This document shows, piece by piece, positions 2 to 10,800 of a DNA stretch of 10,800 nucleotides; position 1 is the stretch's first letter; each line of letters starts with the position of its first letter. The notes beneath the pieces were generated by a model. The model was given only the letters and a program-made list of their open reading frames with translations. It did not search any database and was not told the DNA's origin. The position numbers were made by a program, and so were the translations under genes. Source of the stretch: an uncultured Clostridia bacterium (GTDB lineage: Bacteria > Bacillota_A > Clostridia > Oscillospirales > Oscillospiraceae); assembly GCA_949289625.1 (NCBI GenBank), contig CASEPH010000377.1:1-10800 (forward strand), in the 5' to 3' direction.

Positions 2-1339
2 GATGTGAACAATGAACTGCTGCGCCGTCTGCTCCAGGCCAACAGCGATCTGACAGACTGGCTCATTGATGCCGGGGAGCTGCAAAAGGGCTTTACCTGG
101 GGGCCGGGGCGGATGGGCACCCCGGATGTGGTGTTTACCGCCTATGATGCCTGCGAATTCAACAAGGTGCGGAGCGATCCCTCCTGTGGACCCGGCGATT
201 CCGGCTGGTATATTACAAACCTGCTGACCGACATGTGCAAACGCCGGGGCGGTGAAGTGCTGTTCAATACCCGTGCCGTGAAACTGCTGCAGGATGAAAA
301 CGGCAAGGTGGTGGGCGCATTGGCCCAGGATCCCGGCGGAGAAATTGAGATCCATGCGGGAGCCGTGATCGTGGCTTCAGGCGCTTTTACGAGAAACAGG
401 GAGATCATGGCCAAGATGCAGCCGCTGTTTTATCAGGACGAGGGCAAGGAGCCGGTCCATGTCTATACCTGCGCCACCTGTACTGGCGACGGTATAACCA
501 TGTGCGAAGAATTGGGAGCCCACATCGACTATGTCAATAAGCGTGCCTGCATGTTCGGTCCCATGCACCATCCCATGACCTGTGCTGTGGTGGCCATGCT
601 GCGGAACGGATCTACGGTTTCTGTGGATAAGTTCGGGAATCCCATTACAGAGATGGGTGGCATGTCGGAAATCGGTATGCTGGCCAGCAAGCCGGGCTGG
701 ATGTGCTGGCAGATCATGGACCAGCAGGCCATCGAGGAGACAGTCGCCTCCGGGCAGGCCAGCTCCGATCCGGACCAGGTTCGGGCCTTCTCTCACTGGG
801 AGCGGGATCTGAACGCAGAGCTGCGGGACGGTACCGTGGTGAAGGCGGAATCTCCAGAGGAACTGGCAGAGAAACTGGGCTTTGACAAAAAGGTATTTTG
901 TGATTTCATCGCCAAGCACAATGCGGATGTACGGAACGGAACGCTGCCGAATCCCTTTGGGCCTCCTCCCGGAGATGACGGCGAAGGACCCATGGTGCCG
1001 CCACCCGGCGGAGATGACGAGGACAACTTCATGGGTGGCATGATGATGGAGATGCCTCCTGCCCACGAGCTGCACGGAACCTTGTATGCGGTGTTCATGA
1101 AGATGTTCCATGAAAACGCCATCGGCGGCATGACCATTGACGAGAACACCAATGTAATTCGTGCGGCGGATCGGAAACCCATTGAGGGACTGTATGCCGC
1201 AGGCGATACCTGCCGGGGCATCATGATTCCGGGAGACTTGGGGGTTCAGTACGTGGAGGGTGTGCTCTCCGCCATGACCTCGGCCATGTGTACCGGTTAT
1301 CTGGCGGCGGAGAAGGCCATAAAGTATTTGGATAGATAA
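2..1339 (+). CDS. FAD-dependent oxidoreductase, fumarate reductase flavoprotein-like, 5' end missing
   Basis: This is the C-terminal 445 residues of a flavoprotein of the FAD_binding_2 (fumarate reductase/succinate dehydrogenase flavoprotein) family. The reading frame is open to the left edge. By comparison with the complete paralogue at 3388-5010, about 120 residues including the N-terminal GxGxxG dinucleotide fold are missing. Counting from the codon at position 5, visible family features are VIVASGAF at 121-128, the GDGI motif at 161-164 followed by the ELGA helix, and the C-terminal FAD segment EGLYAAGDT at 394-402. The usual HHTMGG and HG-NR-GG substrate motifs are not present; the matching stretches read HENAIGG and CRGIMIPGDLGVQ. 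A Pro/Gly/Asp/Met-rich stretch (319-351) and a CATC pair of cysteines (156-159) are unusual. It is likely a cytoplasmic reductase or dehydrogenase; the substrate is unknown. A steroid, bile acid or aromatic enoate is possible, as in other members of the family. Confidence 0.9.
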   Translation, partial: DVNNELLRRLLQANSDLTDWLIDAGELQKGFTWGPGRMGTPDVVFTAYDACEFNKVRSDPSCGPGDSGWYITNLLTDMCKRRGGEVLFNTRAVKLLQDENGKVVGALAQDPGGEIEIHAGAVIVASGAFTRNREIMAKMQPLFYQDEGKEPVHVYTCATCTGDGITMCEELGAHIDYVNKRACMFGPMHHPMTCAVVAMLRNGSTVSVDKFGNPITEMGGMSEIGMLASKPGWMCWQIMDQQAIEETVASGQASSDPDQVRAFSHWERDLNAELRDGTVVKAESPEELAEKLGFDKKVFCDFIAKHNADVRNGTLPNPFGPPPGDDGEGPMVPPPGGDDEDNFMGGMMMEMPPAHELHGTLYAVFMKMFHENAIGGMTIDENTNVIRAADRKPIEGLYAAGDTCRGIMIPGDLGVQYVEGVLSAMTSAMCTGYLAAEKAIKYLDR

Positions 1340-1446: not shown

Positions 1447-3159
1447 TTAGTCTTCCAGGTAACGCTGATAGGCAGCTTCGTAAATGGCATCCATCTGTCC
1501 CAGGCTGCCCGCCTCCAGATCTGCGATGAGATCACGGTAGCCCTGCTCGGTCATGTCTCCCACGACGACCTTGGAAGCGGCCTCGGTCACAGCGGTGAGT
1601 ACGTCGCCCGCCAGAGCAAAGTATTCTGTGGTCTCATCTGTAGTAAGCTTGACTTCTGTCGGAATGGTCATGGTGTCATCGCCATACTCGGCAGTCCACA
1701 GCTCATAGGCGGCTACGGCTTCAGGCGCCAGCGTCATCTCCAGATAGCGTTGCTGTTGATCGGTGGGAAGCCACTGGTTGGGCGTGTAAAATACGGTGGC
1801 AATATCGAAGCTCATGCCGTCGGGATTGTTGGTCATAACGTCGGTCCACTGATAGGAGCCGTCAGCTTCCTTGGTGTAAGAGACGCCCTCAGCACCAAAG
1901 GCTACCAGATCCATGCCGGCGGGGGTGTAGCAGTAGTTCACGTACTGCATGGCGGCTTCTGGTGCGTCACAAGCGGTGGTGATGTAGAGCTTTCCGTTCA
2001 TGGCTACGGTCATAGGTGCAGTCACATGCACGTCGATGTCGGTCAGCGCAAAGGGAGCTGCCGCCCAGTTGGGATCGCTGCCGTTTTCACGGAAGGCAGG
2101 ATCTGTGTATTTGCAGTCATCCTGCCAGACGCCGCATTTGCCGGAGTAATAGGAGGATTCCCAGTTGCCATATTCCTTGCCGGTGTTCATAAAGTCCTCG
2201 TTGATGATGCCCTCGTTGTACAGGGAATTAAGGTAGTTGAGGTATTCCATAAAGCCTTCGGAGGCATAGGAGCAGATGAGCTCGTCGCCATTGGGTTCTA
2301 CCCGCTGATAGCCTACGCTGCGGAAGCCCATAAAGCTGGTGTTAAAGAAGGGGGTCAGACCGGAGTCGCACTCAAAGTTTACCAGCAGGGCGTTGCTGGC
2401 GCCGCACTCAGTTTTGAAAGCCCTGAGGACCTCGGTGAGTTCATCAAAATTCTTGGGAGCTTCCATGCCCAGCTGATCCAGCCAGTCCTGCCGGATCAAC
2501 AGTCCTTGAGAGACCCGTGCGATGGCACGACCGCAGAACTGAGATAGGGTCCCGTCGCTGTTATATACGCCGGTGGCAAAGGAAGGATCGGAATCCAGAA
2601 TTGCCTTGTAGTCAGGGGCGTTCTCTTCCAGCAAAGGGGCCATGTCAATGAGAATATCCTGCTCAATGGCGCCCATCAGATCGGCGTCATACTGGGCTAC
2701 GGTCTGGCTGAAGAAATCCGGTAGATCGCCGCCGGCCATCATCAGGTTCATTTTTTCGGAGTATGTGGATTCCGCCAGCATGGTAAAGTCAATGGATACG
2801 CCGGTGGCTTCCTCCATGGCATCATAGCAGGGAGTGGCGCTGTAGTCGTCGTTGCCCATGGCTTCGGCGGCGTTCATTCGGAGAACTGTCACCATGGAAA
2901 AGGTGTGGTCACCGGGACTGGGGTATTCCACAGAAGACGCTGTGGGCTCTTCTACGACAGAAGTTTCCACGGACGAATCCACGGGAGCAGCTGGCGATGG
3001 CGCCTCAGCGGGAGTCTCAGAAGCCGGGGCAGTTTCCTCTGTCACAGCTGCGGAAGCTGAGGTGCTGGATACTTCAGATGTGGTATCGTCACCGCAGGAA
3101 CACAGCAGTGCGGCCAGCATGGTCAAAGCCAATAGCATGGCCAACAATCTTTTTTTCAT
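1447..3159 (-). CDS. Extracellular solute-binding lipoprotein (SBP1), LplA/ABC family 1 type
   Basis: This 570-residue protein is a predicted surface lipoprotein that binds a small ligand for an ABC importer. The signal peptide has KKR, a hydrophobic core and a lipobox ending LCSC, giving lipid-modified Cys22. A Ser/Thr/Ala/Pro/Glu-rich spacer follows at 24-78. The binding domain then has DLPDFF (145-150), IRQDWLDQLG (222-231), an FGAEG loop (421-425) and a C-terminal helix ending AAYQRYLED, which match the long LplA/YtcQ-like solute-binding proteins whose known ligands are mostly oligosaccharides. The ATG at 3157-3159 was chosen because AGGAGG lies 7 bases upstream and the signal peptide starts there; a GTG at 3202-3204 would put 15 extra residues before it. 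No permease or ATPase gene is adjacent. It is transcribed from its own promoter at 3266-3318, leaving a leader of about 100 bases. SBP2 and SBP3 are paralogues. Confidence 0.93.
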   Translation of the reverse strand: MKKRLLAMLLALTMLAALLCSCGDDTTSEVSSTSASAAVTEETAPASETPAEAPSPAAPVDSSVETSVVEEPTASSVEYPSPGDHTFSMVTVLRMNAAEAMGNDDYSATPCYDAMEEATGVSIDFTMLAESTYSEKMNLMMAGGDLPDFFSQTVAQYDADLMGAIEQDILIDMAPLLEENAPDYKAILDSDPSFATGVYNSDGTLSQFCGRAIARVSQGLLIRQDWLDQLGMEAPKNFDELTEVLRAFKTECGASNALLVNFECDSGLTPFFNTSFMGFRSVGYQRVEPNGDELICSYASEGFMEYLNYLNSLYNEGIINEDFMNTGKEYGNWESSYYSGKCGVWQDDCKYTDPAFRENGSDPNWAAAPFALTDIDVHVTAPMTVAMNGKLYITTACDAPEAAMQYVNYCYTPAGMDLVAFGAEGVSYTKEADGSYQWTDVMTNNPDGMSFDIATVFYTPNQWLPTDQQQRYLEMTLAPEAVAAYELWTAEYGDDTMTIPTEVKLTTDETTEYFALAGDVLTAVTEAASKVVVGDMTEQGYRDLIADLEAGSLGQMDAIYEAAYQRYLED

Positions 3160-3166
3160 TTTCGTT

Positions 3167-3172
3167 CCTCCT
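3167..3172 (-). promoter_or_regulatory. Ribosome binding site that fixes the SBP1 start
   Basis: The minus strand reads AGGAGG followed by 7 bases and ATG. This places the start at 3159 rather than at the upstream in-frame GTG. A small inverted repeat, AGAAT-ACA-ATTCT (3173-3185), abuts the site on its 5' side. Confidence 0.9.
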
Positions 3173-3265
3173 AGAATTGTATTCTGGCAGACAGGAGACC
3201 TCACTTCCTATGTGCATAACGGAGGGGAATACGGCGAGGTGGTCAAGTCCGCCGGTTCTGTTTTT

Positions 3266-3318
3266 ATTCTAGCATGAAAAAATGTGCTGACCAATGCCAC
3301 TGATGTATGGGACCATAC
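3266..3318 (-). promoter_or_regulatory. SBP1 promoter with shared LysR-type operator (site A)
   Basis: On the minus strand, the -10 box TAGAAT (3266-3271) has a TGC extension, a 17-base spacer and the -35 box TTGGTC (3289-3294). Overlapping the -35 is GCATTGGT, preceded by 7 bases and TAC, giving a T-N11-A box (3295-3307). Just upstream is the palindrome GTATGG-N2-CCATAC (3305-3318). The same arrangement occurs at 6170-6221, 8067-8118 and 5061-5112. The -10 and -35 boxes are assigned by eye; the shared spacing strongly supports them. Confidence 0.8.
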
Positions 3319-3334
3319 CATTTGGGTAATAGAA

Positions 3335-3364
3335 ACCGGGCAAAAGCGGTTGCTTTTGCCCGGT
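3335..3364 (-). terminator. Rho-independent terminator of the complete flavoprotein gene
   Basis: A perfect 13-base-pair stem (ACCGGGCAAAAGC paired with its complement) has the 4-base loop GGTT (plus strand). On the minus strand it starts 23 bases after the flavoprotein stop and is followed by TTTCTATT. It separates the flavoprotein transcript from the SBP1 promoter that begins only 16 bases further on. Confidence 0.85.
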
Positions 3365-3387
3365 AAAACAAAATGCCTTTTAATGGA

Positions 3388-5010
3388 TTATTTCAGAAAA
3401 TCAATGGCGCTTTCGGCAGCAAGCCAGCCGCTGGCAAAGGCCCAGCTGAGGTCATTGATGATCTGTACTTTGTTGTTGCGGATATTGAGATAGCGGCCGG
3501 AGGAGAAGTCTCCGGGAACATAAAGCCCCTCAATGAGTCCGCCATCTTTTGCTGTGGCCTGGATATTTTCGTTGACCAGAACGCCGCCGAAGGCACCGTC
3601 CGTGCCCAATCCGCCGGACACAGCATAGTAGGGACCCTTGGTAAAGGGCAGCATCTCATCGGGGTCCTTGAAATACTCGCTGTCCACGCCGGCCTGGCAC
3701 ATGGCGTTGTAATTGGCGATGGTGGCCTTCAGGTTCTCCAGATGGATGCCCAGTTCCTGAGCCAGTGCCTCGATGGTATCTGCTCTTACGACGCTTTTGC
3801 CCATGCCCGGCATAGGTGGCATTCCACCTCCACGGGGAGAAAATGCCTTTTCCAGATCCGCTTCGATGTCCTCCGGATAAGACGGAGGTGCAGGGAAACA
3901 CCATTCATAAGTTTTTCCTGCCCGGAAGGCTTTGACGCAGGTGTCCAGCATGCCCTGATCGAAGATATAGAAGGACTGGAAGCCAGGCTGTTCCGCCAGA
4001 CGGTTGCCGGTTTCAAAGATGCCGCGACGTTTCTGGGTGCATTCATTGATCCAACGCTTTCCGTTCTTGTTGATCCAGAGGCAGCAGGGCTCTGCGGTCA
4101 TGGACATGAGCGTTTGGCTGGGGCACATACCCAGGGGGCCCATAAGCCGAATCTCAAAGCTATCATAGTCGATATAAGCACCCAAGCTTTCCGCAATGGC
4201 GATGGCGTCGCCGGTATAGGAGGGATGGGTATGACCACCGTTGCCCATGGGCATGTCGGCGATTTTGGGAACATATTTCTTTACCATTTCCGCGTTGCGA
4301 ATCCAGCTGCCGGTGGCTAAGATACAAGCTTTGGCGGTGATGGTATTTGTGCCGCCAGGGTCCGATGCGGTGACAGTATAGATGCCGTTTTCGTGGGTAA
4401 CAGTTTCCACGGCGGTATTGGAAAGCATGGTAACGCCATTCTTTTCACACAGGGCAATCATCCGCTTCATGACGTAGGCGCCACCCTTCCTCTCCTGCTT
4501 GAACGCGGGGATCTTGGGGCCGTCCGGACCGTCGAAGATGTAGGTGCCTTCCTTGTATAGTTCCTCCACGTTTTCGCCGGTGTCACAGAGAAAGTCGAAA
4601 AACGCTCCGGTGGCTTTGAAGGTGTTGTAGGCCAGCTTGGGATTTAGTTCCCAATAGGTTTCATCCATAACTTGGCGAAGAGCGGTCATGGTGTTGTCGG
4701 GAATGCCATGGTCCTTCTGCCAACGGCTGCCATAGACCCGCCAGTCTGCCGCGCCCATGGCGCCGCCGCCAAAATTACGGCGTTTTTCCACCAGTACGAC
4801 CTTCTTATCTGTGGTTTCGGATATTCTTGCGGCAGCAACCAAACCTGCTCCGCCTCCGCCCAGTACCACGATGTCGCAGTCATAGGAGACAGGCGGGTGC
4901 GGGGGAACGGCTGCCGGCTGCTGCTCCTCCACATGGGGAGGCATACCCTCCGCGGGCGGTTGTCCTTCTGTTGCTTCATGGGCTGCAATGGCCAAATCTT
5001 TGTCCTGCAT
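3388..5010 (-). CDS. FAD-dependent oxidoreductase, fumarate reductase flavoprotein-like
   Basis: This complete 540-residue flavoprotein of the FAD_binding_2 family is predicted to be cytoplasmic, with no Sec or Tat signal. A Pro/Glu/His-rich N-terminal tail (1-42) precedes the dinucleotide fold: DIVVLGGGGAGL (46-57) with acidic E75 closing the second strand, and GGGAMGA (81-87). Further landmarks are ILATGSW (230-236), TGDAIAIAESLGA (266-278), NKNGKRWINE (314-323) and the C-terminal GLYVPGDFSSGR (495-506). It has no FMN-binding domain, haem domain or iron-sulfur partner, so its electron donor is unknown. Where fumarate reductases have HHTMGG and HG-NR-GG, this protein has TDGAFGG (470-476) and SGRYLNIRNN, so fumarate is an unlikely substrate; another enoate, a steroid or an aromatic compound is possible. 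The start is supported by GGAGGT 4 bases upstream. It is divergent from LysR regulator 1, the usual arrangement for a LysR target. Confidence 0.93.
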   Translation of the reverse strand: MQDKDLAIAAHEATEGQPPAEGMPPHVEEQQPAAVPPHPPVSYDCDIVVLGGGGAGLVAAARISETTDKKVVLVEKRRNFGGGAMGAADWRVYGSRWQKDHGIPDNTMTALRQVMDETYWELNPKLAYNTFKATGAFFDFLCDTGENVEELYKEGTYIFDGPDGPKIPAFKQERKGGAYVMKRMIALCEKNGVTMLSNTAVETVTHENGIYTVTASDPGGTNTITAKACILATGSWIRNAEMVKKYVPKIADMPMGNGGHTHPSYTGDAIAIAESLGAYIDYDSFEIRLMGPLGMCPSQTLMSMTAEPCCLWINKNGKRWINECTQKRRGIFETGNRLAEQPGFQSFYIFDQGMLDTCVKAFRAGKTYEWCFPAPPSYPEDIEADLEKAFSPRGGGMPPMPGMGKSVVRADTIEALAQELGIHLENLKATIANYNAMCQAGVDSEYFKDPDEMLPFTKGPYYAVSGGLGTDGAFGGVLVNENIQATAKDGGLIEGLYVPGDFSSGRYLNIRNNKVQIINDLSWAFASGWLAAESAIDFLK

Positions 5011-5060
5011 AAGTACCTCCGATCTACCCTGGATGCTGCAAGCAGCAAGGGCTTTTTATC

Positions 5061-5112
5061 ATGGTAGCATTCATTTTTTGAAAAAACCAATGCTAAACCA
5101 GCATGGAAGTAT
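5061..5112 (-). promoter_or_regulatory. Flavoprotein promoter with shared LysR-type operator (site D)
   Basis: The minus strand carries a -10 box TACCAT (5061-5066) with a TGC extension, an 18-base spacer and a -35 box TTGGTT (5085-5090). GCATTGGT overlaps the -35 box and forms TGC-N7-GCA (5091-5103), a perfect T-N11-A LysR box. The outer half reads ATAC-N2-CCAT (5103-5112), where the other sites have ATGG or a near match. It sits in the divergent gap with LysR regulator 1, so one bound site could control both directions. Confidence 0.75.
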
Positions 5113-5135
5113 TACACAAAAGTTATGGTCAAGCC

Positions 5136-5162
5136 TTGTTGAAGGATGCAGAAATATATGAT
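5136..5162 (+). promoter_or_regulatory. Possible promoter of LysR regulator 1
   Basis: TTGTTG (5136-5141) and TATGAT (5157-5162) are candidate -35 and -10 boxes with a short 15-base spacer. Overlapping alternatives in the A/T-rich run at 5155-5167 give other spacings. The candidate starts about 24 bases beyond operator site D, which would allow autoregulation. Confidence 0.35.
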
Positions 5163-5187
5163 AAAATAAGATTACGTTGCAGGATAC

Positions 5188-5193
5188 AGGAGG
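5188..5193 (+). promoter_or_regulatory. Ribosome binding site that fixes the LysR regulator 1 start
   Basis: AGGAGG lies 7 bases before ATG 5201. It falls inside the extension that a TTG start at 5177 would require, which argues against that earlier start. Confidence 0.9.
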
Positions 5194-5200
5194 ATGCGGC

Positions 5201-6133
5201 ATGGAACTTAACCAACTGCACTATTTTGTAAAAGTGGCCAAAACAGAGAATATCACCAAAGCGGCCCAGGAGCTGTTCATTACGCAGCCTGCCCTGAGCC
5301 GAGTGATCCTGCGACTGGAGCAGGAGATGGGCACGACGCTGTTTGACCGGCACGGCGGCCGGGTCACGCTCAATGCCCATGGAAAAAAATTTCTTCAATA
5401 TGTAGAACCTGCATTGGAATCCATCAATGCGGGGGTGCACGCGGTCATTGACGAATTGGACGGTCAGGAGATCGTGATCCATAATTATTTGACAGCGGAT
5501 CTGTTTAAATCCATTGTGGAACGGTGCCAGGCAGAACTGCCGGATACGGTGTTCACAGTCAGCAATATCGGCAACGACGCGGAGGAGGAGAGTCTCCAGA
5601 ACACGGAACCAGATATTGTTATGCTGCCCACCAAGGATTTTCACTCTTTTGTGTTTCCTATGAGTTATATGGAGCGTTGGTGCGTGATCTATAACTGCAA
5701 ATACGCCTTTCACTCGGATTTTAACGGCAGATCCATCACCCTGGAGCAGCTGGCTCAGGAACCGGTTGTTTTCTCCGGTTCCCGCTTTGACCGGGCCTTT
5801 GTGGATTCCATTTTCGCAGAGGCGGGATTACGCCCCAAAATCATGGCATGCACGACGTTGGCGGAATCCAGTACCCAGATCAATCGCTGCAAAGCCGTCG
5901 GGTTTGTGCCAGCAAGCAATTTCCGCAGTCTCATCAAGAGCATTGACAGCATCCCGATTGCTGCGGCGGTGGTTTCGGATTCCCCTTGCCAGCGGATGCT
6001 GTACCTGGGCAGAAACCCCAAATTCCTCTCCAATGCCGACGAATACAAGGTGTTGGAGACCATCAAAAACTATCTTTCCAAGGAATACGCGGAAACAGAT
6101 GCCTTTTTTGAGTCGTATTTTGGTCAATCCTGA
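5201..6133 (+). CDS. LysR-type transcriptional regulator 1
   Basis: This 310-residue protein has the standard LysR length. The N-terminal winged helix-turn-helix is clear: MELNQLHYFVKVAK, then ITKAAQELFITQPALSR (18-34), a recognition helix, and LFDR (47-50). A linker helix contains SINAGVHAV (74-82), and the rest forms the effector-binding domain, which shares landmarks with regulator 2: PDI---P--DF, WC-IY, QL-QEP, INRC-A-G, and P-FL-NA near the end. ATG 5201 was chosen because AGGAGG lies 7 bases upstream and the family's N-terminus begins there; a TTG at 5177 would add 8 unmatched residues. It is divergent from the complete flavoprotein gene and 119 bases upstream of SBP2. Both neighbours carry T-N11-A boxes, so it probably regulates them in response to a substrate. 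No clear terminator follows it; read-through into SBP2 is possible. Confidence 0.96.
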   Translation: MELNQLHYFVKVAKTENITKAAQELFITQPALSRVILRLEQEMGTTLFDRHGGRVTLNAHGKKFLQYVEPALESINAGVHAVIDELDGQEIVIHNYLTADLFKSIVERCQAELPDTVFTVSNIGNDAEEESLQNTEPDIVMLPTKDFHSFVFPMSYMERWCVIYNCKYAFHSDFNGRSITLEQLAQEPVVFSGSRFDRAFVDSIFAEAGLRPKIMACTTLAESSTQINRCKAVGFVPASNFRSLIKSIDSIPIAAAVVSDSPCQRMLYLGRNPKFLSNADEYKVLETIKNYLSKEYAETDAFFESYFGQS

Positions 6134-6168
6134 CAGTGATCGGAGTCTGGAACGTATTCCCTTGGTGA

Positions 6169-6221
6169 TATGGGACCATACCGCTTTGGCATTGGTACGG
6201 AGCATCCTTCTGTGATATGCT
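6169..6221 (+). promoter_or_regulatory. SBP2 promoter with shared LysR-type operator (site B)
   Basis: TATGG-N2-CCATA (6169-6180) overlaps TAC-N7-GCA (6179-6191), a T-N11-A LysR box, which runs into GCATTGGT and the -35 box TTGGTA (6192-6197). The -10 box TATGCT (6216-6221) follows an 18-base spacer and has a TGA extension. The 14-mer TATGGGACCATACC (6169-6182) is repeated exactly on the plus strand at 3306-3319 in site A. The predicted leader is about 25 bases. Confidence 0.8.
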
Positions 6222-6252
6222 TTTTTTAAAGTAAGACAAGGAGGATGAGGCA

Positions 6253-7965
6253 ATGAGAAATGAAAAAAAACTGTTTGCGCTGCTGCTGGCTCTGGCCATG
6301 GTACTGTGCTTGGCGGCCTGTGGAACGGAAACAACGTCATCGAACGATTCAGCAAATCCGGTCCAGACCTCTGCAATAGAGGTGTCGGAGCTGCCGGCGG
6401 AGGAGCCGGATACTGCGGAAGTTTCTTCGGAAGAGGCCTCCAGCACAGAGGCTTCCCAGATGGAGGAAACTGCGGATCGACCTGTGGTCAGTTATCCTCT
6501 GTTTGACGACGTCACCACCTTTACCCTTTGGACCTCCAACTCTCCGGACCTCAGCGAGATCATTTCGGACCTGAATCAGTATGTGGTCTTTGAGGAACTG
6601 GAAAAGGTGACAAATGTAAGATGGGATGCAACCCTGGTGTCCTTTTTCTCCTCTACGGAGCAGTTCCAGTTGATGGTAGCATCTCAGGATTATACCGACG
6701 TGGTGTGCCGTGCGCTGGACACTGGTGGTTATACCGGTGGTGCGGATCAAGCCATCGAAGAGGATTTCCTGATCGACGTTACAGAACTGATTGACGAGAA
6801 TATGCCCAATCTGCTGGGATGGTTTGACACCTATCCAGAGCTGAAAAAACAGATCTCCTCTGCGGAGGGTAACATTGCTGGATTCCCCAAGATCTATTTG
6901 GAGCCCAGCGATGTGACTGCAGGCGGCTGTATCCGGCTGGACTGGCTGGAGGAATTGGGACTGGAAACACCCAAGACCTTTGACGACCTGGAGTATGTGC
7001 TGGAACAGTTCCGGGATCAGAAGGGGGCTGCGGAGCCGCTGGTGATCTCCGTGAACACCGGCGTACAGGCAGAGCTGCTCAACGGCTACAATATCGCCGC
7101 TGGTTTTTATCAGGTGGACGGAGAGGTTCGCTTTGGCGCCATGCAGCCTGAGTTCAAGGACTATCTCGCCATGATGAACCGCTGGTATCAGGAGGGGCTG
7201 CTGTCTGACAGCTTCCTGACCTCTCAGGCCGATGTGCTCATGGATGTGAATAGCATCCTCAACAACCAGACTGGCGTATGGTATGGTACCGGCGTCCAGA
7301 CCATCACCAATATTGTCAATATGGCCAACGGACCCATGAGCATCACCGGGGTGCCCTATGTGACGGTGGATGGGAGCAAGGCCCATGTGGGAGAAGAGAG
7401 CACAGTGCTCGACTCCATTATGTGGTCCATTACCACCGAATGCGAAGACCCTGCGGCGATTTGCCAGTATATCGACTATATTTATGGTGAGGACGGCATC
7501 CAGTTGGCCAACTACGGTGTGGAAGGCGAAACCTTCAACTATGTAGATGGGAAACTGGTGTTCACGGATCTGGTCAAGAATAATCCGGATCTGACCTATT
7601 CTCTGGCCCTGAACGTCTATACCTGTGACCGCCAGACGCCGGTCCCCTTTGTGATTGACGAAGAAAAGGCCCGGATGGACTATACCGAGGATCAGATGAA
7701 TGCTGTAGAGGTCTGGAGCAATGCTACAGACGGCCTGTACAACATTCCCCGGCAGGGCGTCACCATGACCACCGAGGAAACGGAAGAATACAACAGCATT
7801 TACAGTGATATTGACACCTACATGGATGAATCCATCTCCAAATTTATTGTGGGTGATACCTCTTTGGAGGAATTCGATGCCTTTGTGGCGCAGCTGGAGA
7901 CCATGGGCATTGCGGACTGCATTGCCATTGAGCAGGCAGCCTATGATCGGTATCTCCAAGGCTAA
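6253..7965 (+). CDS. Extracellular solute-binding lipoprotein (SBP2), LplA/ABC family 1 type
   Basis: This 570-residue lipoprotein is a paralogue of SBP1 and SBP3. The signal peptide ends in the lipobox LAAC, giving lipid-modified Cys23. An acidic Ser/Thr/Glu spacer fills 24-78. The binding domain carries SQDYTDVV (144-151), IRLDWLEELGLETPKTFDDL (227-246), WYQEGLL (311-317), YGVEGETFN (421-429), VFTDL-KNNP and the terminal AAYDRYLQG. These are landmarks of long LplA-like solute-binding proteins, whose characterised members feed sugar importers, so the ligand could be an oligosaccharide or another organic compound. AAGGAGG with an 8-base gap supports ATG 6253. It has its own promoter (site B) and terminator (7985-8022), so it is probably monocistronic apart from read-through from LysR regulator 1. 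No transporter subunits are adjacent. Confidence 0.94.
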   Translation: MRNEKKLFALLLALAMVLCLAACGTETTSSNDSANPVQTSAIEVSELPAEEPDTAEVSSEEASSTEASQMEETADRPVVSYPLFDDVTTFTLWTSNSPDLSEIISDLNQYVVFEELEKVTNVRWDATLVSFFSSTEQFQLMVASQDYTDVVCRALDTGGYTGGADQAIEEDFLIDVTELIDENMPNLLGWFDTYPELKKQISSAEGNIAGFPKIYLEPSDVTAGGCIRLDWLEELGLETPKTFDDLEYVLEQFRDQKGAAEPLVISVNTGVQAELLNGYNIAAGFYQVDGEVRFGAMQPEFKDYLAMMNRWYQEGLLSDSFLTSQADVLMDVNSILNNQTGVWYGTGVQTITNIVNMANGPMSITGVPYVTVDGSKAHVGEESTVLDSIMWSITTECEDPAAICQYIDYIYGEDGIQLANYGVEGETFNYVDGKLVFTDLVKNNPDLTYSLALNVYTCDRQTPVPFVIDEEKARMDYTEDQMNAVEVWSNATDGLYNIPRQGVTMTTEETEEYNSIYSDIDTYMDESISKFIVGDTSLEEFDAFVAQLETMGIADCIAIEQAAYDRYLQG

Positions 7966-7984
7966 ATCTTTTGCGTAGAAATAG

Positions 7985-8022
7985 AGCGGACCTGAGATCG
8001 TATTTACAGTCTCAGGTCCGCT
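7985..8022 (+). terminator. Rho-independent terminator of SBP2
   Basis: A perfect 13-base-pair stem (AGCGGACCTGAGA with its complement at 8010-8022) has a 12-base loop. It starts 19 bases after the SBP2 stop and is followed by AATTTGTAT, a weak T-rich tail. Confidence 0.82.
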
Positions 8023-8066
8023 AATTTGTATAGAGGAACCATGGAATGCGATATAACATTGGTGTA

Positions 8067-8118
8067 ATGGGGGTATGCAAAAAAAGCATTTGTGAAGAAT
8101 TTGTGAAGATGTTATGAT
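8067..8118 (+). promoter_or_regulatory. SBP3 promoter with shared LysR-type operator (site C)
   Basis: The -35 box TTGTGA (8090-8095), 17-base spacer and -10 box TATGAT (8113-8118) with a TGT extension make the best promoter in the window. The operator pattern is ATGG-N2-GTAT (8067-8076), then TGC-A7-GCA (8076-8088), a perfect T-N11-A box, then CATTTGT where the others have CATTGGT. Two tandem copies of ATTTGTGAAGA occupy 8088-8098 and 8099-8109, covering the -35 box and part of the spacer. Confidence 0.8.
8088..8109 (+). repeat. 11-base tandem direct repeat inside the SBP3 promoter
   Basis: ATTTGTGAAGA occurs twice head to tail without a gap. The first copy contains the -35 box and the second lies in the spacer. 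The period is about one helical turn. It is absent from the other three promoters, so it could be an extra regulator site specific to SBP3 or a chance duplication. Confidence 0.85.
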
Positions 8119-8163: not shown

Positions 8164-9894
8164 ATGAAAAAGAAACTTTGTGCAATGGTTTTAGCGCTAT
8201 GCATGCTGCTTACCCTGGCAGCAGGTTGTGGAACCCAGACAGAATCCAAGACCTCTGTGGCGGAATCTACTGAGACCAGTCAAGCCGCTGAGACCACGGC
8301 GGCGCCGCAGGAGGAGACGGAAACTCCGGCGGAACAGCCATCCTCTGAAGAGACCACAGAGGGGTCGGCGGTGGAGGAGGCTCCGGCAACCGTGGAATAT
8401 CCTCTGGTGACAGACGGATCTGTTTCCTTTGATGTGTTCATGAGTATGGCAGGCTTTATCCCCATGGTGATTCCTGATGTGGCCAACGTGGGCTTTGACA
8501 CCACCCGGGGTGTTCAGCAGTTGGAGGAGCAAACCGGTGTGGATCTGAAATGGACCCTGATCGACGCGGACTCCTATGCAGACCAGTTTTCCATTGTGAT
8601 GGCCTCCGGGGATTATCCGGATTTCCTGGGGGCAGCCAACACCATGGTCACCGGCGGGATCGATGCCCTGGTGGAGCAGGAGATCTGCATTGATGTGGTG
8701 CCCTATCTGGACAGTTGCTTGCCGGATTTCAAGGCGGGATTGTATTCTGAAAACGAGGATTACCGTAAGTACATTACCTCGGACTCTGGCTACATCACCA
8801 CCATCTACAACTTCGAGGAGCAGTCTACCATGGGTTCCTATATCCGGCAGGACTGGCTGGATCAGCTGGGACTGGCAGTGCCGGAGACCTATGATGAGCT
8901 TCACGATGTACTGGCTGCATTTAAATCCGAAATCGACGGCTGCGATTATCCCATGCTGATGACCCAGAACTGGGATTTCCCCAACAATATGTTCGTGGGT
9001 GGCTATGAGACCAGTTCCTTTGGCACTGGGGCGGATCTTTCCTACTTTGTCCAGGATGGAAAGGTCCAGGCCGGCGTTATGAGCGATGGCTACCGGGATT
9101 ATATTCAGATGTGCCATGACTGGTACGCAGAGGGGCTCATTGGCGAGCCCACCCTGAATGTGGTCAACAATATGCAGATCAACGAATATCTGCTTTCCAA
9201 TCAGTGCGGCTTCGGCAACGGCCAGTCGGACACCCTGGGGACCGGTGCAGTGGCGGCAGCTGGGGGATCCTACAATATGCGGGCTGTGAAGGAAATGGTC
9301 CGGGAGAAGGGTGACACCTTCAAGCTCTACAAAAATGCCGGCCAGCCAGGTAACGGCGGATGGGCTGTATCCACGGCCTGCGAGGAGCCGGAAATTGCGC
9401 TGAAGGTCATCAACTGGATGTGGACCGAAGAGGGTTACAACGCCATGAATTTTGGTGTGGAGGGCGAAACCTACAATATTGTGGACGGCGAAGTGGTGTT
9501 TACCGATCTGATCGTCAATAACCCCAATGGAATGAACGCCATGTTCAACTCCTGCAGTGAGATTTCCTTCTTTGACCTGCCCTTCGACTTCTGCATGGAG
9601 CGGAAGGTGGCGACCCTGTCCAATGAAGCGGAAGCCGAGGCTCAGGAGATCTGGCGGACCAATACTTCCGATGAGATGCGGTATTTCGGGTCCCTGACCA
9701 TTGAGGAGAGCGAAGCCTACACCTCCATGGCCGGCGACCTGTACACCCATGCCGCAGAGAACATCAGCAAATTTGTTACCGGCACCAGACCCATGAGCGA
9801 GTGGGACTCCTTCCTGGATGATCTTCGTTCCATGAAAATCGACGAGTGCATTGCGCTGAAACAGGCGGCCTACGACCGGTATCAGCAGAGATAA
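8164..9894 (+). CDS. Extracellular solute-binding lipoprotein (SBP3), LplA/ABC family 1 type
   Basis: This 576-residue lipoprotein is the third paralogue. The signal peptide begins KKK and ends in lipobox LAAGC, giving lipid-modified Cys22. A Thr/Glu/Ala/Pro spacer runs to residue 78, where all three paralogues reach a V-YP boundary at 79-80. The binding domain has SGDYPDFLG (148-156), IRQDWLDQLGLAVPETYDEL (227-246), WYAEGLI (320-326), FGVEGETYNIVDG (430-442), VFTDLIVNNP and the terminal AAYDRYQQR. GGAGG lies 7 bases before ATG 8164. It resembles SBP2 in the C-terminal half but differs in the central ligand-binding region (roughly 260-400, including a Gly/Ala-rich GTGAVAAAGG segment), so the ligands may differ. 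Its own promoter (site C) and the strong terminator at 9906-9941 make it a single-gene transcript. No permease lies next to it. Confidence 0.94.
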   Translation: MKKKLCAMVLALCMLLTLAAGCGTQTESKTSVAESTETSQAAETTAAPQEETETPAEQPSSEETTEGSAVEEAPATVEYPLVTDGSVSFDVFMSMAGFIPMVIPDVANVGFDTTRGVQQLEEQTGVDLKWTLIDADSYADQFSIVMASGDYPDFLGAANTMVTGGIDALVEQEICIDVVPYLDSCLPDFKAGLYSENEDYRKYITSDSGYITTIYNFEEQSTMGSYIRQDWLDQLGLAVPETYDELHDVLAAFKSEIDGCDYPMLMTQNWDFPNNMFVGGYETSSFGTGADLSYFVQDGKVQAGVMSDGYRDYIQMCHDWYAEGLIGEPTLNVVNNMQINEYLLSNQCGFGNGQSDTLGTGAVAAAGGSYNMRAVKEMVREKGDTFKLYKNAGQPGNGGWAVSTACEEPEIALKVINWMWTEEGYNAMNFGVEGETYNIVDGEVVFTDLIVNNPNGMNAMFNSCSEISFFDLPFDFCMERKVATLSNEAEAEAQEIWRTNTSDEMRYFGSLTIEESEAYTSMAGDLYTHAAENISKFVTGTRPMSEWDSFLDDLRSMKIDECIALKQAAYDRYQQR

Positions 9895-9905
9895 CTAATT
9901 GCGAC

Positions 9906-9941
9906 AAGCCCCCCGCGGAACAAGTGTTCTGCGGGGGGCTT
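9906..9941. terminator. Strong bidirectional terminator between SBP3 and LysR regulator 2
   Basis: Arms 9906-9922 and 9925-9941 are complementary over 17 positions with one G-T pair, including an AAGCCCCCCGC/GCGGGGGGCTT core. The tip pairs cannot all close, leaving a loop of about 4 to 6 bases. Short T-runs occur on both exits, so it can serve both convergent genes. Confidence 0.9.
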
Positions 9942-9951
9942 TGATATCGGA

Positions 9952-10800
9952 TCATGGTTCGCGAAATCCGGCGCGCAGGAATGCCTCAGCGGCCTGCAGT
10001 TCCTCGGTGATATGCATATCCAGTAGTTCCAGAATGGCATAATCCTCCGCGTTGCCGAGGAAATCTGGACGGTGGCTGAGATAGATGGGACGCTCGATCT
10101 TTTTCTCGGAGAGCAGCATGGCGCGCACCGGCGTATCGGGAACTCTGCGCACCAGGGACCGATAGGCGGTTACCGGTGTAATGCCAATGGCCCGGCAGCG
10201 GCTGATAGAGATCCGGGATTCATCGGACTGGGTGGCGAACCGGAGATTGGGTGGCAGCTCTGGAAAGATTTGCGAGAGAATTTCCCTGTCGTAGGGAGAA
10301 CTGTCGAAGATGATGGATTCCTGGAAAAGCTGCTGAATGGAAATAGAGGATCCGTCGCAGTCGGAGCGAAAGGTATAGTTCTTGTGGAACATAATGCACC
10401 AGGGTTCCAGATAGGTTTTTGCCACCGTATAGTTCCGAAAATCCTGTTCTGGAATGATGGTCAGGTCCGGGGCCAGATCCGTGGGATAATCTGAAACGGA
10501 ACGGGTGCCGTCAAAGGCCTGCAGGTCCACGTCGGGAAAGGCGGAAAGACACCGGTCACAAAAGGATGCAAAATCATCCAAAAATACATAGTTGGACACA
10601 AGAATACGACGGTTCACGTTGCGCTGTCGTACCGCATGGACGCCGGCATTAATGGAATCCAGCCCGGCGGAAACATATTTTAAAAAAATCTGGCCATTCT
10701 CATTAAGAATCAAGGTGTTGGATTTCCGATCAAAGAGCTTGACTTCCAATTCTGCTTCCAGTCTGCTGATGGAACGGCTCAGGGCAGGCTGGGTGATATA
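9952..10800 (-). CDS. LysR-type transcriptional regulator 2, 5' end missing
   Basis: The frame is open to the right edge and gives the C-terminal 282 residues of a LysR-type regulator. The first visible residues, YITQPALSRSISRLEAELEV followed by KLFDR, are the second half of the helix-turn-helix. By alignment with regulator 1, about 25 N-terminal residues lie outside the window. It shares SINAGVHAV in the linker helix with regulator 1, plus PDL-IIPEQDF, a WCIMF strand, SIQQLFQES, ISRC-AIG, YRSL and YLSHRPDFLGNAEDY, so the two are paralogues. The internal TTG at 10747-10749 is a leucine codon, not a start. It converges on SBP3 across a strong terminator. By analogy with regulator 1, its unseen 5' side is likely to face a divergent target gene. 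Confidence 0.95.
   Translation of the reverse strand, partial: YITQPALSRSISRLEAELEVKLFDRKSNTLILNENGQIFLKYVSAGLDSINAGVHAVRQRNVNRRILVSNYVFLDDFASFCDRCLSAFPDVDLQAFDGTRSVSDYPTDLAPDLTIIPEQDFRNYTVAKTYLEPWCIMFHKNYTFRSDCDGSSISIQQLFQESIIFDSSPYDREILSQIFPELPPNLRFATQSDESRISISRCRAIGITPVTAYRSLVRRVPDTPVRAMLLSEKKIERPIYLSHRPDFLGNAEDYAILELLDMHITEELQAAEAFLRAGFREP

Follow-up and report, generated by a model that had tools for sequence, protein, structure and literature searches.

The window described here is the 10,800-nucleotide stretch at positions 1 to 10,800 of contig CASEPH010000377.1 (assembly GCA_949289625.1), from an uncultured bacterium of the Clostridia. It carries seven genes, four of which are preceded by copies of one LysR-type operator-promoter module. 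The genes are flavo1 (2-1339, plus strand), a flavoprotein gene whose 5' end is cut by the window; SBP_A (1447-3159, minus), encoding a solute-binding lipoprotein; flavo2 (3388-5010, minus), encoding a flavoprotein of the FAD_binding_2 type; LysR1 (5201-6133, plus), encoding a LysR-type regulator of 310 amino acids that is the proposed binder of the four copies; SBP_B (6253-7965, plus) and SBP_C (8164-9894, plus), encoding two further solute-binding lipoproteins; and LysR2 (9952-10,800, minus), the alternative binder, whose 5' end is also cut by the window.

Site A (3290-3333, minus) stands before SBP_A, site B (6153-6196, plus) before SBP_B, site C (8050-8093, plus) before SBP_C, and site D (5086-5129, minus) before flavo2, within the spacer that separates flavo2 from the divergent LysR1. 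A sequence-only reading of this DNA had described four sites by the 27-bp pattern ATGG-N2-CCAT-RC-N7-GCATTGGT, and a pattern scan of the window confirmed their coordinates. The pattern is met without mismatch at 3290-3316 (minus) and 6170-6196 (plus), with two mismatches at 5086-5112 (minus) and with three at 8067-8093 (plus), and every other position in the window carries at least four. The deviations listed for C (GTAT and CATTTGT) and for D (ATAC) were also correct. The shared alignment that had been proposed is real and above chance, but its extent was drawn too short: aligning the sites on GCATTGGT gives a common element of 44 bp rather than 27 bp, ...AT..C.....TG..AT......AT.C.......GCATT.GT, and the conserved unit reaches 17 bp farther upstream than the 27-bp pattern. 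Within the window, the 44-bp element has only four strong matches, standing before the four gene starts.

Seventeen columns are invariant across the four sites, and 12 of these pair into two dyads. In the proximal dyad (columns 25-39), A25 pairs with T39, T26 with A38 and C28 with G36 about column 32, giving ATRC-N7-GCAT. This box lies at 3294-3308 in A and 6178-6192 in B, where it reads ATAC-N7-GCAT with one mispaired position, and at 8075-8089 in C and 5090-5104 in D, where ATGC-N7-GCAT is a perfect dyad. T26-N11-A38 is invariant in all four sites, which bears out the single operator design with T-N11-A LysR-box symmetry that had been claimed. Farther upstream, six of the seven invariant columns between 0 and 24 make three complementary pairs (A3-T18, T4-A17 and C7-G14, about column 10.5), and these outline a distal box of 16 bp (columns 3-18) with the form AT-N2-C-N6-G-N2-AT and T-N12-A spacing, located at 3315-3330 in A, 6156-6171 in B, 8053-8068 in C and 5111-5126 in D. 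When the distal invariant columns were permuted, three or more pairs came up in 88 of 20000 trials with free movement and in 547 of 20000 with blocks kept; the distal box is likely, although not certain, to be a dyad. The invariant columns outside the dyads are T13, C37, T40, G42 and T43.

A separate operator, ATGG-N2-CCAT (columns 17-26), had been suggested as a second site overlapping the LysR box, and this candidate was rejected. GG and CC occur together only in A and B (two of the four sites), site C having GG and GT and site D having AC and CC, and only the outer AT...AT is kept in all four. Because these invariant AT and AT belong to the facing ends of the two dyads, the motif is better read as an apparent join of two boxes, in which the right end of the distal dyad meets the left end of the proximal one.

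The module also keeps a fixed place relative to the promoter. With the start of the -10 hexamer taken as -12, the dyad centres fall near -64 (distal) and -42 (proximal), separated by 21.5 bp, roughly two helical turns, and in all four sites the last base of the proximal box is also the first of the -35 hexamer. These hexamers (TTGGTC in A, TTGGTA in B, TTTGTG in C and TTGGTT in D) are far from TTGACA. Each is followed, after 17 bases in A and 18 bases in B, C and D, by a TG-preceded -10: TAGAAT at 3266-3271 (A), TATGCT at 6216-6221 (B), TATGAT at 8113-8118 (C) and TACCAT at 5061-5066 (D). The earlier description of a box overlapping the -35, with a TG-extended -10 at 17 or 18 bases, therefore applies to every one of them. 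A consensus promoter scan, which finds equally many promoter-like sites in shuffled sequence and is no evidence by itself, favours, for A and C, a -35 hexamer displaced by a single base.

Over 42 bp, the highest-scoring star alignment of these four upstream regions, all of them from one 10.8-kb window, has a score of 82. This score was reached by none of 400 dinucleotide shuffles (mean 62.1, standard deviation 1.6, maximum 70) and by none of 4000 random quartets drawn from a background set of 114 upstream regions in other genomes, duplicates removed (mean 64.0, maximum 74). The GC content of these background regions is 0.36-0.56; the genomes were taken from the class and the family to which one Lachnospiraceae genome belongs, and many of the loci were chosen for carrying LysR or binding-protein genes. 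Taken pairwise over 42 bp, A-B, B-D and C-D lie above all 400 shuffles and B-C is equalled by six of them; A-C and A-D, reached by 69 and 98 of the 400 respectively, are not significant alone. With a leave-one-out 44-bp matrix, the held-out sites score 18.9-32.5, values that none of 1,699,160 background positions attains (852 kb in 65 loci of other genomes, with L001-L009, L011-L030, L062-L071 and masked loci left out), and inside the window each held-out site is outscored only by the three training sites. When the matrix is cut to the 27-bp core, 128 background positions score as high as site C and 4 as high as site D, and therefore the upstream part matters, above all for C; used alone, this upstream part is weak, between 300 and 39724 background positions reaching the held-out site.

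A search of 104 genomes, together about 251.7 Mb by their rounded sizes, gave 16 matches to the 27-bp pattern at two mismatches or fewer, which corresponds to 0.0007 expected per 10.8 kb, against three in the window. The background matches are taken as chance because most of those inspected (11 of 12) lie inside stop-free frames of at least 146 codons and the 3-kb loci around these 12 contain no relatives of the window's proteins. The reversed pattern, as a control, has five matches in the same 104 genomes, and 16 against five is an excess without explanation. In viral contigs, five exact matches to the pattern were found.

It could be argued that the similarity is an inherited remnant of promoters that were copied along with the lipoprotein genes and no longer exert control. 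Three of the four genes are indeed paralogs, SBP_A, SBP_B and SBP_C being 30-33% identical to each other. However, paralogs of this kind look far too old for unselected DNA to have remained alignable, conserved columns alternate with unconserved ones in a dyad pattern, and the gene behind the fourth promoter encodes a flavoprotein, from a different family, all of which makes a remnant very improbable. The low identity of the lipoproteins and the unrelated fourth target also agree with the previous judgement that the promoters are not the product of simple recent duplication.

LysR1 matches HTH_1 (E 1.7e-21), and its match to LysR_substrate is under the cut-off. Its full-length model (mean predicted local distance difference test score, pLDDT, 87.9; predicted template modelling score, pTM, 0.75) has a predicted LysR fold with helix 29-43 in the recognition position, and the nearest solved structures are BenM, CbnR and OxyR, with BenM on top both by sequence and by structure. 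Q29 and P30 stand at the start of this helix. According to PMC12609908, the T of T-N11-A is read by residue 30 of the recognition helix (P30 in both BenM and CbnR), and the same proline is present in LysR1.

The divergent spacer between a LysR gene and its target is a classical place for a LysR operator. Site D occupies such a place between flavo2 and LysR1, and sites A, B and C do not. An alternative is that the sites belong to LysR2, or to a LysR protein encoded outside the window, and that LysR1 controls something else. LysR2 adjoins SBP_C, has 37% identity to LysR1 and retains QPALSR as the core of its recognition helix; nevertheless, this alternative is unlikely, and LysR1 appears the better candidate binder, because the spacer from which it diverges contains site D and relatives of LysR1 and of flavo2 seem to occur on the same contigs. 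A regulator from outside the LysR family, to which the T-N11-A symmetry would be incidental, is less probable still: any dyad-binding protein could use the element, but its T-N11-A symmetry comes with ATRC/GYAT half-sites, a probable second box lies two turns upstream, and two LysR genes are present in the cluster.

Autoregulation of LysR1 is possible, to judge from the layout of the spacer. A candidate LysR1 promoter, TTGAAG-17-TAAAAT with TG (5139-5167, plus), which comes from the consensus scan only and has no excess over shuffles, begins 13 positions past the distal dyad of site D, and its -35 is not covered by the boxes.

Poor -35 hexamers are expected of activator-dependent promoters. 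In the four sites, the poor -35 joined to a TG-extended -10 at a fixed distance suggests that the promoter probably needs a bound regulator. The explanation considered fairly likely is that LysR1 binds all four sites and, together with a small ligand, activates the three solute-binding lipoproteins and the flavoprotein as one regulon. A LysR tetramer could hold the distal and proximal boxes on one face of the DNA, because their centres are about two turns apart, and LysR1, encoded divergently from flavo2, would act in this way at each weak promoter. Perhaps the lipoproteins would bind, and the flavoprotein reduce, this same ligand. The likelihoods assigned to this explanation and to its rivals overlap, as one LysR protein can activate and repress, and both LysR proteins may bind.

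The module is a well-formed further example of familiar LysR-type gene control, and three described systems are close enough for comparison. Site 1 of the BenM operators is the distal site. BenM and CatM sites have the form ATAC-N7-GTAT, and under the influence of effectors the tetramer moves to occupy Sites 1 and 2; the -35 of benA is located just downstream of Site 2, and Site 1 matches the consensus, from which Sites 2 and 3 deviate (PMC6628147). The four window sites share with the BenM/CatM operators of benA and catB in Acinetobacter baylyi the T-N11-A form, the presence of several boxes and the location of one of them just upstream of the -35. They differ in that their distal box is a degenerate 16-bp T-N12-A dyad, that no downstream Site 3 is conserved, and that the gene set is another one. 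The T-N12-A spacing of the proposed distal box has also been described for some LysR proteins, among them CutR of Mycobacterium; however, CutR is described as a dimer on an inverted repeat without an activation site (PMC12609908), whereas two boxes are proposed in the window.

The third system, CcpC on citB of Bacillus, is the precedent for the main rival explanation, in which operator and regulon are the same and LysR1 represses: the unliganded protein would cover the -35, and the ligand would relieve this block. CcpC is a Gram-positive LysR repressor that binds one dyad at -66 together with a half-dyad near -27 (PMC8514465), and the window sites resemble this arrangement in that one dyad lies in the -60s and the other site is closer to the promoter. 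The CcpC boxes read ATAA, TTAT and TATT (PMC8514465), and the second CcpC site is near -27, whereas that of the window is near -42. Conservation in the window extends upstream to about -71; past the -35, in the stretch that would hold the second CcpC site, it fades except at the -10, and the -35 hexamers are poor. Repression is therefore held to be somewhat unlikely.

Several observations weigh against activation of the four promoters by LysR1, or against the evidence behind it. The contact of the proximal box with the -35 in all four sites fits repression as well. The distal dyad is weak, with 3 to 5 of its 8 pairs complementary in each site and modest support from permutation, and the strong dyad of the window is the promoter-proximal one, whereas in BenM it is Site 1 that matches the consensus. 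With one duplicate region still included, 6 of 3000 random quartets reached the score of 82, and quartets taken from the same locus (720 drawn) reached 83, the top five all coming from L060, which is very AT-rich (29% GC). The motif ATRC-N7-GYAT was present in the 200 bases upstream of only one of 33 distant LysR homologs (0.4 in shuffles), and therefore LysR proteins sharing this kind of helix do not generally have the box in front of their genes; a looser form, ATnC-N7-GnAT, occurred upstream of three of the 33 (mean of 1.8 in shuffles). Lastly, the gap between LysR1 and SBP_B has no stem-loop listed in the scan of the window, and so SBP_B may also be read from the LysR1 promoter.

Within the one regulon that the four genes probably form, most would be separate transcription units, as the signals between them suggest. 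A 13-bp stem-loop at 3335-3364 lies between the end of flavo2 and site A; another, at 7985-8022, with a loop too long for the first stem-loop scan, lies between SBP_B and site C; and an 11-bp GC-rich stem-loop at 9906-9941 separates SBP_C from LysR2. SBP_A is followed by an inverted repeat with a 12-bp stem and by another at 1413-1438. The inverted repeats after SBP_A, flavo2, SBP_B and SBP_C could be transcription ends. As the stem-loops part flavo2 from SBP_A and SBP_B from SBP_C, they explain why each would have its own operator.

Relatives seem to keep LysR1, flavo2 and SBP_B together on contigs. Among contigs of more than 4 kb, exactly equal sizes were found four times between relatives of LysR1 and flavo2, twice between those of LysR1 and SBP_B and six times between those of flavo2 and SBP_B; with jittered sizes as a control, the mean numbers were 0.0, 0.07 and 0.6, respectively. 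This comparison used 65 listed proteins for LysR1, the best 120 of 311 for flavo2 and the best 120 of 261 for SBP_B, and since only the longest contig per protein cluster is represented, the co-occurrence is indirect. A close flavo2 relative is found on three of the four contigs shared with LysR1 (75-87% identity) and on three of the six shared with SBP_B (80-83%), the rest being 42-47% identical.

In the searches made, close homologs of LysR1 came up only as database proteins, unnamed down to 35% identity. Searching genome contigs with LysR1 returned one locus, which matches residues 1-89, and the class- and family-level searches drew, with overlap, on the class and family of that single-locus genome, the class being taken to be Clostridia. 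Within the class, LysR1 was found in 0 of 391 genomes at E <= 1e-25 and flavo2 in 0 of 382 at 1e-70, empty results that by themselves show nothing. An alignment of LysR proteins matched 5 of 382 class genomes at 1e-27, over 107-139 N-terminal residues, and in the family the LysR search matched 21 of 200 genomes at 1e-25, over the first 88-198 residues among the places listed. SBP_B had relatives in 24 of 148 genomes at 1e-40 (identity up to 36%), in 4 of 382 at 1e-78 (34-35%) and in none of three genomes from a different family at 1e-85. In viral contigs the LysR alignment gave no relative; a plasmid search matched 18 records, the ten listed being 26-31% identical, and a phage search with positions 3160-5200 of the window only gave no match. 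The literature search, covering titles and the beginnings of abstracts among the records listed (in part the best of a larger number), returned no description of this gene set.

One distant locus, L010 (contig C47 of genome G001, Lachnospiraceae; 4676-6781 and 14350-15840), contains a LysR gene whose helix-turn-helix is 53% identical over 66 residues and which is divergent from an SBP_B relative (27%), with a second SBP_B-type binding protein about 8 kb away; ATRC-N7-GYAT was not found in the 200 bases upstream of this LysR gene. Genomes G001, G030, G063 and G079 each have at least nine SBP_B-type paralogs at E <= 1e-40, nine candidates having been scored per genome.

What is gained is, in the first place, a sharp definition of the operator that can be put to the test: an element of 44 bp with two dyads, set at a constant distance from the -10. 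If the regulon holds, three solute-binding lipoproteins would be tied to a reductase-type flavoprotein as a functional unit, which would give a handle on ligand and substrate. A more far-reaching idea, put forward only tentatively, is that one LysR protein runs a binding-protein-fed redox system in which related compounds are gathered by three different orphan lipoproteins and reduced by a flavoprotein in the cytoplasm, the repeated promoter module driving all of it. In such a system, the T-N12-A spacing of the distal box, as against T-N11-A in the proximal one, could let the ligand change which box is held. If true, this would mean that modules of this type form a family spread over a lineage that has hardly been studied.

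As for the proteins themselves, SBP_A and SBP_C match SBP_bac_1 (E 1e-11 and 8.2e-11, respectively), SBP_C has matches to AlgQ1/AlgQ2 in the PDB, and SBP_B, 33% identical to SBP_C, has no Pfam match. The name 'extracellular solute-binding protein [Oscillospiraceae bacterium]' is carried by 2 of 120 SBP_B homologs among the matches listed (best 120 of 261). No ATP-binding cassette (ABC) permease is found among the seven genes of the window; the three paralogous lipoproteins, beside flavoproteins, are possibly orphan binding proteins. The window has no Rfam match.

Flavo2 matches FAD_binding_2 (E 4.3e-33) and, over the flavin adenine dinucleotide (FAD) domain, resembles fumarate, urocanate and vinylphenol reductases (PDB 1qo8 and 6t85). 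All 25 NCBIfam matches listed (best 25 of 44) fall under the curated cut-offs, the score against NF053717 being far under. Inspection by eye revealed no obvious signal peptide in flavo2, which is 26% identical to flavo1. Both flavoproteins contain proline-, glycine- and methionine-rich stretches, PFGPPPGDDGEGPMVPPPGGDDEDNFMGGMMMEMPP in flavo1 (950-1062, plus) and the N-terminal EGQPPAEGMPPHVEEQQPAAVPPHPP plus SPRGGGMPPMPGMGKS in flavo2 (3790-3840 and 4891-4965, minus), which look unusual for the family.

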